In this document: piece by piece, positions 35,714 through 39,051 of the stretch
Layout of the letters: every line of letters begins with the position of its first letter
Position numbering within the stretch: position 1 is the first letter of the stretch
From: Flavobacteriaceae bacterium PS02337
GTDB lineage: Bacteria > Bacteroidota > Bacteroidia > Flavobacteriales > Flavobacteriaceae
NCBI GenBank assembly: GCA_029959285.1
Contig: JASCOE010000003.1
Span: 434,001 to 498,000, forward strand
Length of the DNA stretch: 64,000 nt
Direction of reading: 5' to 3'
Translations under genes and position numbers: made by a program
The notes under the pieces: generated by a model
The model's database searches: none
What the model saw: the letters and a program-made list of their open reading frames with translations, nothing else
Told to the model about the DNA's origin: nothing

Positions 35714-36325
35714 ATGAAACATAGTAAACTGCAATCTTTAGAAAATGATTTTTTAGTTGTTGAAGATGATTTTTATATTGAATTAACAAACGCCAGTCAT
35801 ATTTCGTGGATCAAAGAAATAGCTGAAGTCACACTTTCATCTGCTTTAGCAAGAGGAACAGGAATTTCAGGTCGTTCGGCTGAATTATTAGAAGAAAAAA
35901 TGAAAAATGGAGAAGCTGTTATTGCATTTTCTTTTGATGGAAAATGGGCAGGTTTTTCTTTTATTTCTTCTTGGAATAATGGTCGTTTTGTTTCTAACTC
36001 AGGATTAATTGTCGCGCCAGAATTCAGACATACTGGTCTTGCTAAAAAAATTAAAAGAAAGATTTTCGAATTGAGTCGAACAAAATATCCAGAAGCAAGT
36101 ATATTTAGTCTTACAACTGGTTTGGCTGTGATGAAAATGAATCACGAACTTGGTTTTGAACCCGTGACATATTCTGAACTTCCGCAAGATGATGCTTTTT
36201 GGCAAAATTGTAAAACCTGTATCAATTGTCCTATTTTGATGAGTAAAGAAAGAAAAAACTGTTTATGTACCGCCATGTTATATAATCCGAAACATAAAAT
36301 AATAGATATTAGAACGGCAAAGTAA
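35714..36325 (+). CDS. GNAT-family acetyltransferase with C-terminal Cys cluster
   Basis: 203-aa GNAT N-acetyltransferase. The acetyl-CoA loop region is LIVAPEFRHTGLAKKIK (residues about 96-112). The C-terminus has CKTCINCPILMSKERKNCLC, five Cys that could bind metal. Similar GNAT proteins with this tail are, as I recall, found at the head of arginine biosynthesis operons in Bacteroidota, next to argG. Here no arginine gene follows; the next elements are isoleucine leader peptides and ilvN. Catalysis of an amino-acid acetylation is plausible but not shown. Confidence 0.82.
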   Translation: MKHSKLQSLENDFLVVEDDFYIELTNASHISWIKEIAEVTLSSALARGTGISGRSAELLEEKMKNGEAVIAFSFDGKWAGFSFISSWNNGRFVSNSGLIVAPEFRHTGLAKKIKRKIFELSRTKYPEASIFSLTTGLAVMKMNHELGFEPVTYSELPQDDAFWQNCKTCINCPILMSKERKNCLCTAMLYNPKHKIIDIRTAK

Positions 36326-36364
36326 AATACTGTAAACATTACAATAGAAATTAAAAAATATCAA

Positions 36365-36372
36365 TATATTTG
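36365..36372 (+). promoter_or_regulatory. Candidate -7 element for the ilvN leader
   Basis: TATATTTG is a perfect TAnnTTTG box, 17 bp before the first leader ATG. No clear TTTG lies at the expected -33 position, so the call rests on one element and its place. Confidence 0.45.
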
Positions 36373-36389
36373 CGCTTCAAATCAAGCAA

Positions 36390-36440
36390 ATGAAAAACTT
36401 AATTACTATCATTTCTATTATCATTATTATCATTCGATAA
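36390..36440 (+). CDS. Isoleucine-rich leader peptide 1
   Basis: A 16-codon ORF encoding MKNLITIISIIIIIIR, with nine Ile codons (six in a row), a Leu codon and a stop. It is followed 43 bp later by a rho-independent terminator. The arrangement is that of a ribosome-stalling attenuator: low charged tRNA-Ile would stall the ribosome in the Ile run and favour read-through. It is too short for usual gene finders. Confidence 0.8.
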   Translation: MKNLITIISIIIIIIR

Positions 36441-36483
36441 TCGTGCAGGGATGTTATATAAATAAGTAAAAAATAAAACTTAG

Positions 36484-36514
36484 AAAACCTCCCCATAAAA
36501 CGGGAGGTTTTTTT
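36484..36514 (+). terminator. Attenuator terminator 1
   Basis: Perfect 10-bp stem AAAACCTCCC / GGGAGGTTTT with an 8-nt loop and T-tract, between the two leader peptides. No other gene ends here, so it is most likely regulatory. Confidence 0.88.
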
Positions 36515-36527
36515 GTTTACAGCAATT

Positions 36528-36587
36528 ATGAAAAATTTAGTTCAAAATAGCATTATTATTTCAATTATCATTATTCGTTTTACATGA
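36528..36587 (+). CDS. Isoleucine-rich leader peptide 2
   Basis: A 19-codon ORF encoding MKNLVQNSIIISIIIIRFT, with seven Ile codons and one each of Val and Leu, the three branched-chain amino acids. It begins 14 bp after the first terminator and is followed 25 bp later by a second. It shares the MKNL start and the S-I-I-I-I-R core with leader 1, suggesting duplication. Confidence 0.8.
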   Translation: MKNLVQNSIIISIIIIRFT

Positions 36588-36612
36588 CGAGTTAGGAATA
36601 TATTGTCTATAC

Positions 36613-36648
36613 AAAAAAGCCTTTCTCAATTATGCGAAAGGCTTTTTT
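36613..36648 (+). terminator. Attenuator terminator 2
   Basis: Perfect 13-bp stem AAAAAAGCCTTTC / GAAAGGCTTTTTT with a 10-nt loop, ending 35 bp before the ilvN ATG. Transcription must pass it to reach ilvN. Confidence 0.9.
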
Positions 36649-36683
36649 TATACCTGAAAAAAAGCACAATTAACAAATACAAA

Positions 36684-37193
36684 ATGAAAAACGAATTTAC
36701 ACTTACCATTTACTCCGAAGATCAATTAAGATTAATTAATAGACTTACTTCCATGTTTCTTAGAAAACAAGTGGAAGTTTTGAGCCTTAATATGTCTGTT
36801 TGCGAAATTGATAAAATGTACCGCTATACAATTGTAATAAGAGAAACGCTTGATCAAGCGCGTAATTTAGCGGCACAAATAGAGAAAATTATAGAAGTAT
36901 ATAAATGTCATTTTAATTGGAATGAAGAAACGGTTTTCAGACAAATAGCGTTATTCAAAATTCCGACTGAGTTATTTATGACAGAAACAAAAATGGAATC
37001 ATTACGTAAAATAAATGATTTCAAAATTTCAGAAATTCATAAAGAATATACCATAATTGAAGCGACAGGAGCAGAAGAAGAAATAAATTCTTTTACTGAA
37101 AAATTACGTTTTTTTGGATTGATTGAATTTGTAAAAAGTTCTAGAATTGCTCTTATAAAAACGAAGGAAGGTTTTTGTGAAGAAATCGAATAA
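36684..37193 (+). CDS. ilvN: Acetolactate synthase small (regulatory) subunit, lone
   Basis: 169-aa ACT-domain protein from the ATG at 36684 (MKNEFTLTIYSEDQLRLINRL); longer frames run back through the terminator and are artefacts. The N-terminal ACT domain (residues 3-75) includes VEVLSLNMSVCEIDKMYRYT and the second half (FRQIALFKIPTE, KEYTIIEATGAEEEINSF) matches IlvN/IlvH. It would bind acetolactate synthase and confer branched-chain feedback control. In flavobacteria ilvN usually sits between ilvB and ilvC; here neither is present and the mechanosensitive channel follows. It may be a second copy or a rearranged operon. Confidence 0.85.
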   Translation: MKNEFTLTIYSEDQLRLINRLTSMFLRKQVEVLSLNMSVCEIDKMYRYTIVIRETLDQARNLAAQIEKIIEVYKCHFNWNEETVFRQIALFKIPTELFMTETKMESLRKINDFKISEIHKEYTIIEATGAEEEINSFTEKLRFFGLIEFVKSSRIALIKTKEGFCEEIE

Positions 37194-37275
37194 ATCAAAT
37201 AAAGGCAGATTTTTAACCTTTGAAGACTTTATTTTTCTGCCATAATTTCTTATTTTTAATAAAAGCAAAAGAAAT

Positions 37276-39051
37276 ATGATTTTAGCAACTAAACGTTTAC
37301 TGTCTTTTTTACTACTGATTACTGCATTATTGATTCAGCCGAATTCTATGAATGCACAACTTTTGGGTACAAAAACAGCAGTAGAAGAACCCGTTAAAAC
37401 GCCAGAAGATTCGCTTGGAAGAAGAACGCCGCAAGGAACGGTTAACGGATTTATTAAAGCAATTGGTGACCAGAATTATCTGCGTGCCAGCCAATATTTT
37501 GTTTTAAGTAAACGCTCTTACCGCAAAACAGCCGAAAGAATACGCATAGCAAAAGCTTTTCAGCAGTTGTTAGATCAAGGTGGAAATTTTTCGCCATCGT
37601 CTATTATAAGTAATAAAGAATTTGGTCGTGTAGATGACGAATTGGCGACAGGAGTAGATTTAGTAGGAAACATATCAACCAATAAAATTAATATTCAGCT
37701 TTATGTAGAAAACCAATCTGATGATAGTCAGCCCGCAATATGGCTTTTTTCTTCAGAAACAATCGAGTCAATTCTTTCTGCTGATCTTACTGGAGAAAAA
37801 TCTTTTTTAGATCGAATTTTGCCTAGAATATTAAAAGAAAAAAAAGTAGGAAATGTGCCTATCGGACATTGGGCAGTCGTAGTCGTTATGGCCGTTGTTA
37901 CGTATTTGCTTTCTAGATTGCTGATTTTTGTACTTATTTTTCTCATTCAAAAAATCTGGAGAAAAGCAGATAGCGATAAAGGGACAGCAATGATTGACGC
38001 TTTTAGTCTTCCAGTTCAGCTTTATCTTACCGTAATTTTATTTGTGGCATTAACGCAACGAATGGGAATTTCTATTGTCGTTCGTCAGCGATTTAGCATC
38101 ATTATAATTACAATCGGAATTGTAGCTTTTCTAATTCTGCTTTGGAGAATGACAGATTTCGTAAGTATGTTTACGCGTAGCAGAATGAACAGACGCGGAC
38201 GTATTTCTGCAGTTTCTGCAATTTTATTTTTAAGTCGCACCACAAAAGCAGCAATTATCGTTATCGGAATTATTGCCATTCTTGGAATCATTGGCGTAGA
38301 TGTTACTGCTGGACTTGCTGCTCTTGGTATTGGAGGTATCGCTTTAGCTTTGGGAGCTCAAAAAACAATAGAAAATTTTGTGGGAAGTGTAAGCCTTATT
38401 GCAGATCAGCCATTGCGAGTTGGCGATTATTGCCGAGTTGACGATATAAAAGGAACTGTAGAATCTATCGGAATGCGATCGACTACGCTTCGAACTTCTG
38501 CGCGAACAATTGTAACAATTCCTAACGGACAATTGTCTGCGAGTAAAATCGAAAATTATGCACATCGTGATCGTTTTATTTTCAATCCGATTTTTAATTT
38601 TAGAATGGAAACTACTCCAGATCAGATGCGTTATTTACTTGTAGAACTTAGATCTTTGTTGTATGCGCATCCAGCAATTTTAAATTCATCACCAATAGTG
38701 CGTTTTACAGGAATTACTGCCGATGCATTAAAAGTTGAAATTACCGCCTACATCGAAGCAATAAATGTTGAAGTTTCACAAGAAGTACAAGAAGATATTT
38801 TGTTGAGAATGATGGATATTATTGAAAAAAGTGGTACATCTTTGGCTTATCCTTCTCAGACACTTTACATGGCACGAGATTTTTCTTTCTCAACAGAAAA
38901 AGCCGAAGAGGTTTCTGAAACAGTAAAAAAATGGAAAGAAAATAACGAACTGCAATTACCGAAATTCGACCCTAAACGAGTTGAAGATTTAAAAAATAGT
39001 ATTAAATATCCAGATGAAGGAAGTTTTAATCCTAATGAAGATAATTCGTAG
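37276..39051 (+). CDS. MscS-family mechanosensitive ion channel
   Basis: 591-aa inner-membrane channel. A signal peptide (ends MNAQ) is followed by a periplasmic region to about residue 195, four TM helices (WAVVVVMAVVTYLLSRLLIF, PVQLYLTVILFVALTQ, IIIITIGIVAFLILLW, AAIIVIGIIAILGIIGV) and the pore-lining helix GLAALGIGGIALALGAQKTI. The MscS beta domain follows: LRVGDYCRVDDIKGTVESIG and TIVTIPNGQLSASKIENY. The last 80 residues are a charged tail. It would release solutes under hypo-osmotic shock. It is a single gene ending in TAG with a strong terminator. Confidence 0.93.
   Translation: MILATKRLLSFLLLITALLIQPNSMNAQLLGTKTAVEEPVKTPEDSLGRRTPQGTVNGFIKAIGDQNYLRASQYFVLSKRSYRKTAERIRIAKAFQQLLDQGGNFSPSSIISNKEFGRVDDELATGVDLVGNISTNKINIQLYVENQSDDSQPAIWLFSSETIESILSADLTGEKSFLDRILPRILKEKKVGNVPIGHWAVVVVMAVVTYLLSRLLIFVLIFLIQKIWRKADSDKGTAMIDAFSLPVQLYLTVILFVALTQRMGISIVVRQRFSIIIITIGIVAFLILLWRMTDFVSMFTRSRMNRRGRISAVSAILFLSRTTKAAIIVIGIIAILGIIGVDVTAGLAALGIGGIALALGAQKTIENFVGSVSLIADQPLRVGDYCRVDDIKGTVESIGMRSTTLRTSARTIVTIPNGQLSASKIENYAHRDRFIFNPIFNFRMETTPDQMRYLLVELRSLLYAHPAILNSSPIVRFTGITADALKVEITAYIEAINVEVSQEVQEDILLRMMDIIEKSGTSLAYPSQTLYMARDFSFSTEKAEEVSETVKKWKENNELQLPKFDPKRVEDLKNSIKYPDEGSFNPNEDNS

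Follow-up and report, generated by a model that had tools for sequence, protein, structure and literature searches.

Organization of the locus

The window analysed here is a stretch of 64,000 nucleotides from Flavobacteriaceae bacterium PS02337 (contig JASCOE010000003.1, positions 434,001 to 498,000), and positions are counted from its first letter. A lone ilvN-like gene in the window is preceded by two short isoleucine-rich ORFs, each followed by a terminator, and the following features were assigned to the locus.

36365..36372, + strand: promoter -7 box TATATTTG of the TAnnTTTG class (motif match)
36390..36440, + strand: leader ORF 1, MKNLITIISIIIIIIR, 16 codons with 9 Ile; counterpart in 15 of 15 loci of the genus
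36410..36416, + strand: leader 1 segment 1, CAUUUCU, pairing with AGGGAUG (36447-36453) in the RNAfold minimum free energy structure
36448..36455, + strand: leader 1 segment 2, GGGAUGUU, predicted antiterminator strand, pairing with AACCUCCC (36486-36493) of terminator 1
36484..36514, + strand: terminator 1 (T1), perfect 10-bp stem (36484-36511), 8-nt loop and T run
36528..36587, + strand: leader ORF 2, MKNLVQNSIIISIIIIRFT, 19 codons with 7 Ile
36573..36578, + strand: leader 2 segment 1, AUUCGU, pairing with ACGAGU (36587-36592)
36589..36596, + strand: leader 2 segment 2, core GAG(uu)AGG, predicted antiterminator strand, pairing with CCU(uu)CUC (36620-36627)
36613..36649, + strand: terminator 2 (T2), 13-bp outer stem (36613-36648) and T run
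36684..37193, + strand: lone ilvN-like gene for a second AHAS regulatory (small) subunit, 169 aa

The peptides and isoleucine counts of the two leader ORFs and the strong intrinsic terminator after each of them, all named in a preliminary description of this DNA, were borne out, while the start of ilvN was corrected to the ATG at 36684. Relative to the 7.2% isoleucine of eight nearby coding sequences in the window, the isoleucine content had a P value of about 2e-7 for leader 1 and about 2e-4 for leader 2, the ORFs being taken as given. When the whole window was scanned with equal settings, leaders 1 and 2 were the only Ile modules on the + strand, while the - strand gave a single weak match (54419). 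The RNAfold z scores of the two modules were -4.3 and -4.5, respectively (200 dinucleotide shuffles each). A search of the locus against Rfam gave 17 matches up to E 5, every one below its gathering score, and the best scores for the Phe, His and Thr leaders were 32.3, 30.4 and 23.8 bits against gathering scores of 55, 49 and 55. A plasmid search with positions 36300-37200 gave no match.

An MscS-type mechanosensitive-channel gene (Pfam) lies 3' of the lone ilvN in the window (37276-39051). The same neighbour was seen in the near clade (L208-L221 and L223) and was not found in the remaining lone loci.

Conservation of the double leader before lone ilvN genes

In a sample of 150 genomes of the genus, 62 had an IlvN match at E<=1e-30, and the 31 loci examined comprised 15 lone genes, 13 type-2 operons and 3 type-1 operons. 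Both leaders and both terminators were present in the same order in all 15 lone loci, so that the double leader that the preliminary description had proposed to look for before ilv genes of other Flavobacterium genomes was found. A profile search of named genomes, which overlap in part with the genus sample so that the two counts are not to be added, gave 70 loci, 34 in ilvB-ilvN operons and 36 called lone. Exactly two leader-terminator modules were scored in 34 of these 36; L265 scored one module because its second leader starts with TTG, and L277 (Polaribacter filamentus) scored no leaders and is a fragment of ilvN, with a match over only some 47 residues. Both modules are thus kept in 35 usable lone loci across large protein divergence, including Flavobacterium johnsoniae strain CI04 (L242), while the genes 5' of the unit vary between loci. 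The distance from the T1 stem to leader 2 was 13-17 nt in 34 named loci, and that from T2 to ilvN was 36 to 78. The pN/pS of the lone leaders (0.43-0.53) gives mild support for their translation. Judged from these comparisons, the double-leader unit is real and conserved.

Among the operon loci, those of four metagenome-assembled records titled Sphingobacterium, Limnohabitans, Rhizobium and Alphaproteobacteria (L231, L244, L253 and L270) are ilvB-ilvN operons; their IlvN proteins are 38-46% identical to the query, and the records are possibly mislabelled or misbinned.

Alternative pairings of the two leaders

For leader 1 of the window, the predicted folds are CAUUUCU with AGGGAUG, GGGAUGUU with AACCUCCC, or the terminator, and for leader 2 they are AUUCGU with ACGAGU, GAG(uu)AGG with CCU(uu)CUC, or the terminator. 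The antiterminator core of leader 2 starts 2 nt past the UGA stop in the window, with one longer fold spanning the stop, and in most leader-2-type modules of relatives the antiterminator strand already starts within the stop codon or 5' of it.

When the 3' arm of the terminator was left out, an antiterminator formed in the predicted folds of 14 of 15 leader-1 modules and of all 15 leader-2 modules. The mean antiterminator energies were -8.4 kcal/mol (leader 1) and -8.2 kcal/mol (leader 2) against -5.3 and -5.5 kcal/mol in shuffles; taken singly, 3 of 15 leader-1 and 2 of 15 leader-2 antiterminators beat their shuffles (p<=0.05), with z from +0.5 to -3.0. The frame is shifted in leader 1 of L027, and no antiterminator was predicted for this module. 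The duplex between segment 2 and the terminator arm was also calculated for 88 modules from 44 chosen loci, which are related and include 13 of the 15 lone ones, and its mean energy was -11.1 kcal/mol compared with -6.05 kcal/mol in shuffles, 58 of the 88 modules reaching p<=0.05. No good duplex was found under the rule used in the first leaders of L074, L077, L078 and L093-L095. By eye, the matching strands differ between loci, for example ACGAG/CUCGU and UGAUACAG/CUGUAUCA.

On alignment A6, 94.9% of the cells of the leader-1 antiterminator were paired, with zero compensatory changes. The antiterminator helices of the lone set likewise gave 0 compensatory pairs, and shuffled columns did equally well; covariation is absent here because the helices hardly vary. 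In the protector of leader 2, one G-C pair becomes A-U in two sequences. By these predictions, each leader is able to fold into either an antiterminator or a terminator hairpin, the two being in competition.

Amino acid sensed by the leaders

Of 514 codons in the leaders of the lone loci, 248 were for Ile, 9 for Val and 22 for Leu. AUA made up 4 of the 248 Ile codons, compared with 84 of 328 in the coding sequences of the window (p 3e-18), and this scarcity points to the tRNA that reads AUU and AUC. In contrast to the leaders before ilvD in the family, whose modules carried 170 Val to 370 Ile codons (69 unmasked modules, some of them spurious), the lone leaders have few Val codons, and the lone unit therefore looks isoleucine-specific.

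The AND-type response suggested earlier for the double leader is not expected at lone ilvN, since both leaders read the same amino acid and would multiply one signal rather than compute the AND of two. An AND gate is conceivable in related operons whose first leader mixes Ile and Val codons.

A single promoter box before both leaders

TAnnTTTG is the -7 promoter box described for F. johnsoniae (PMC6847099). It was found at -25 to -28 from the ATG of leader 1 in all 15 lone loci of the genus, and in none of the 15 did it occur in the interval from T1 to leader 2 or in that from T2 to ilvN. In the named loci, the box preceded the called leader-1 ATG in 32 of 36; in L224, L227 and L232 it lay within the called leader-1 ORF, 5' of an internal ATG, and it was absent from L277. 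After leader 1 it was found in 0 of the 36.

Because the single conserved promoter box is located at leader 1, the two gates most likely stand in series on one transcript. It is very improbable that leader 2 and ilvN have a promoter of their own, in which case the attenuators would not be in series. In favour of such a promoter, Flavobacterium promoters are short with a weak -33 element (PMC6847099), and other boxes are used by alternative sigma factors (PMC9723704); against it, the box is missing after leader 1 in every genus and named locus, and in 34 loci leader 2 follows the T1 stem at a distance of only 13-17 nt. Two isoleucine attenuators in series before the lone ilvN, as originally proposed, are thus well supported by conservation, compatible pairings and the single promoter box.

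The lone IlvN as a second AHAS small subunit

The lone protein has the domains ALS_ss_C (9e-14) and ACT_5 (9e-7), both over the Pfam cut-offs. It scored 56.2 bits with TIGR00119, 0.7 under the cut-off of 56.9, and 72.4 with NF008864 (cut-off 119). The canonical IlvN of the same genome passes TIGR00119 (98.9) and misses NF008864 (104.2), and an argument for divergence from scores below equivalog cut-offs was therefore rejected.

This canonical ilvN, 36% identical to the lone one, belongs to a leuAB-ilvDBNC operon, of which leuA, leuB, ilvB and ilvC were confirmed by NCBIfam and which has a single leader, MQISIIITSVVVVNVIHTSASGMV, before ilvD. The term lone, used in the preliminary description, accordingly holds for the locus and not for the genome. 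The ilvA gene (IlvA by NCBIfam) also has its own single Ile leader, MKNFNNIIIAIISIIAIQQ, with a terminator.

Two IlvN proteins, the lone one and a canonical one elsewhere, were present in all 15 lone-ilvN genomes checked, each of which had one close IlvB (G108 also had a 38% relative). Since a canonical IlvN was found in all of them, the lone gene is, from its sequence, not the main ilvN but a second, diverged AHAS small subunit. Its median dN/dS was 0.18 (145 pairs in the usable dS range, 35 genes, named genomes), a value by which the protein is judged to be under purifying selection. In the IlvN tree, the canonical type-1 IlvN proteins were separated with full support (100/100); the lone proteins were not resolved as a clade (support 40/23), with a long-branch warning.

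The ilvA leader of this genome (L201, oriented positions 996-1121 of G000:C44) lies 3' of a small lipoprotein-like gene, and small lipoprotein-like genes also occur before the tandem leaders of L033, L064, L073 and L075.

Effector-site residues

Residue positions were placed through PDB alignments, with the numbering of E. coli IlvH and Gly14 taken as an effector-site position, and the lone proteins were compared with 23 distinct operon copies (L031 and L044 are the same place and were counted once). At the Asn11 position, all 15 lone proteins have Asp and all 23 operon copies have Asn. At the Asn29 position, Asn was found in 0 of 15 lone proteins compared with 16 of 23 operon copies, and at the Gly14 position the lone proteins have Arg or Lys (8), Gly (6) or Asp (1). 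The lone proteins do not have the Asn at positions 11 and 29 that is the mark of a valine-sensitive AHAS small subunit. Asn11 and Asn29 of E. coli IlvH bind valine, and the IlvN of Corynebacterium glutamicum has Asp in the place of Asn11, where the change D17E gives valine resistance (PMC11893703). Since such a resistance mutant implies a sensitive wild type, Asp in the lone proteins is no proof of valine insensitivity, and loss of valine feedback is put forward as a hypothesis suggested by these residues.

Tandem leaders elsewhere in the family

Two models were built, R1 from leader 2 and R2 from leader 1, the latter from re-cut and realigned copies, as MAFFT had placed the T1 arms in a poor register. 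At E<=0.001, R1 matched 28 and R2 53 of the 150 genus genomes, and R1 matched 40 of 349 family genomes at E<=0.01. Names of downstream genes outside the window were mostly read by eye from ORF starts. Tandem leaders were seen by eye before 5 of 11 type-2 operons in the genus (L033, L035, L039, L041 and L043), and they were also found before ilvB-ilvN-ilvA in G070 (ilvA also by profile evidence), before a short ilvN-like gene and ilvA in G030, G056, G046 and G105, and before ilvE-ilvD in G011 and G094. Three leaders in series precede an ilvE-like gene in G009 (L074), G454 (L093), G409 (L094) and G242 (L095). In a set of 28 loci picked with R1, two or three leaders were present in 14. Such switches, two or three in number, appear to recur in some other genera ahead of the main genes of the pathway.

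The triple arrays begin with a leader containing Ile and Val codons, followed by two closely similar Ile leaders. In L064, L065, L073 and L075, the tandem leaders are followed by a short gene (142-146 aa) that aligns with ilvN and then by an ilvA-like gene. All four short genes have Lys at position 13; those of L064 and L065 have sub-threshold ACT matches only, and no Pfam family was found at E 0.001 for those of L073 and L075. They are called ilvN-like by alignment and place.

A family sample that was not selected by leaders comprised 110 genomes, 83 of which had IlvD at E<=1e-150 and 82 usable upstream DNA. Upstream of ilvD, 34 regions had no module, 37 had a single one, 10 had two and 1 had three. 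One of the two-module regions, L182, lost its far module (-2014) as spurious, and tandem leaders upstream of ilvD then amount to 10 of 82. In these ten regions, the first terminator has CCTTCC, CCTCC or CCCTCC and the second CTGTATC or CCTTTCTC. By this count, tandem arrays are a minority yet recurrent state in the family.

Single shuffles of the 82 upstream regions gave no module in 79, one module in 3 and two modules in 0, the shuffled regions being 500 nt long and the real scan covering 2,400 nt with coding sequence masked. That the ORFs and terminators before the lone ilvN are chance features of an intergenic region has a negligible probability: AT-richness and the frequent occurrence of short ORFs speak for it, but no shuffle produced two modules and the unit is conserved.

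It is scarcely credible that the isoleucine-rich ORFs encode functional small hydrophobic peptides, for instance Ibs-like type I toxins, which precede ilvN incidentally. The leader peptides are indeed short and hydrophobic, like Ibs toxins; in many lineages, however, such ORFs precede ilvN, ilvA, ilvE or ilvD, always with a terminator behind them and mostly with a possible antiterminating strand.

A duplication of the leader, also suggested in the preliminary description, is plausible in that the leader-2 model weakly matches leader 1 (E 0.00125), a match that fits duplication or shared composition. A recent duplication is not indicated, since leaders 1 and 2 differ in their terminators and antiterminators and the pair is already tandem before several type-2 ilv operons.

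It may be, though we are inclined to doubt it, that the second gate came as a fail-safe from a larger ilv operon whose leaders responded to different amino acids, leader 1 to Ile and Val and leader 2 to Ile, and that before lone ilvN it only cuts leakage, with no special response now. The tandem leaders before ilvB-N-A, ilvN-A and ilvE-D sets in relatives are in line with such an origin, as is the valine in the family's ilvD leaders, of which the lone leaders have almost none. Retention of both modules in all 35 usable lone loci stands against it, whereas in the family sample 37 of 82 ilvD regions have one module and 34 none.

Proposed mechanism

The features expected of an attenuator, namely an Ile-rich leader ORF, an intrinsic terminator, predicted mutually exclusive pairings and a downstream gene of the same pathway, were found for both leaders, and we consider it likely that two ribosome-mediated isoleucine attenuators in series control the second AHAS small-subunit gene. 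One sigma-A-type promoter at about 36365 would start a transcript through both attenuators. With plentiful Ile-tRNA, the ribosome would finish leader 1 and cover or disrupt segment 2, so that T1 forms; a polymerase that passes T1 would meet leader 2 about 13-17 nt further on, where a ribosome finishing the leader would cover the antiterminator strand at or just after the stop codon, so that T2 forms. Under a shortage of charged Ile-tRNA, ribosomes would stall in the Ile runs, segment 2 of each leader would pair with the 5' arm of the terminator, and the polymerase would pass both gates. Read-through of the two gates would multiply, giving low basal expression and a steeper induction than one gate. 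The starvation response and the multiplied read-through are inferred from established attenuation biology.

The role of the product is more speculative. The lone IlvN might join the one close IlvB of the cell, changing its activity or feedback inhibition under isoleucine starvation. A tentative form of this idea, which we would not favour over its negation, is a starvation-specific subunit exchange in which a steep, nearly leak-free switch, built from two gates here and three elsewhere, supplies a lone IlvN of altered effector site that competes with the canonical IlvN for IlvB and relieves valine feedback. Such an exchange would fit the scarcity of Val codons in the lone leaders, and also the residues that replace Asn11, Asn29 and, within the near clade, Gly14; if true, isoleucine would be made while valine is plentiful.

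Comparison with known systems

Attenuation is a textbook single-gate switch. The trp, ilv and Corynebacterium ilvBNC attenuators share with the present unit the leader ORF, the antiterminator and terminator and the cognate gene (PMC11550727); they have one gate, whereas here two would act in series, before the gene of the regulatory subunit only. The closest printed precedent, as far as the available text of the source goes, is Salmonella mgtCBR, which likewise has two tandem short ORFs in one leader, each a translation-coupled attenuator (PMC3641672). The mgtCBR ORFs sense ATP and proline, independently and additively, whereas the leaders of lone ilvN would both sense isoleucine; moreover, the mgtCBR stem-loops are unlike intrinsic terminators, while each lone-ilvN leader has one and the gene belongs to a biosynthetic pathway (PMC3641672). 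The tandem riboswitches of Bacillus clausii metE are also two independent elements with two expected intrinsic terminators, but they are ligand-binding RNAs, whereas ribosome stalling on codons is proposed here (PMC3641672).

In F. psychrophilum, of the same genus, strong clues for leader-peptide attenuation before amino-acid operons have been reported, without mention of tandem leaders in the available part of that source (PMC9723704). Long 5' UTRs with leader-like sORFs are likewise known from Bacteroides thetaiotaomicron, where BT_4401 has several putative ones; it precedes a hypothetical gene, and the part of the source available names no gates or amino acid for it (PMC7366714). Among the matches listed in a search of the open-access literature, there were no tandem amino-acid leaders in Flavobacteriaceae and no doubly attenuated ilvN. 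The natural arrays of two to three gates for the same amino acid would offer a ready test of multiplicative versus switch-like control, and stacked gates a test of how basal leakage is set in bacteria without Shine-Dalgarno sites.

In Arabidopsis ALS, two regulatory subunits interact with one catalytic subunit, as two IlvN proteins and one IlvB occur together here, and the plant regulatory subunits have two ACT repeats each and act without attenuation (PMC5384131). The target here is a regulatory subunit that stands free and is the second one for a single catalytic subunit, which makes conditional exchange of AHAS subunits directly testable.
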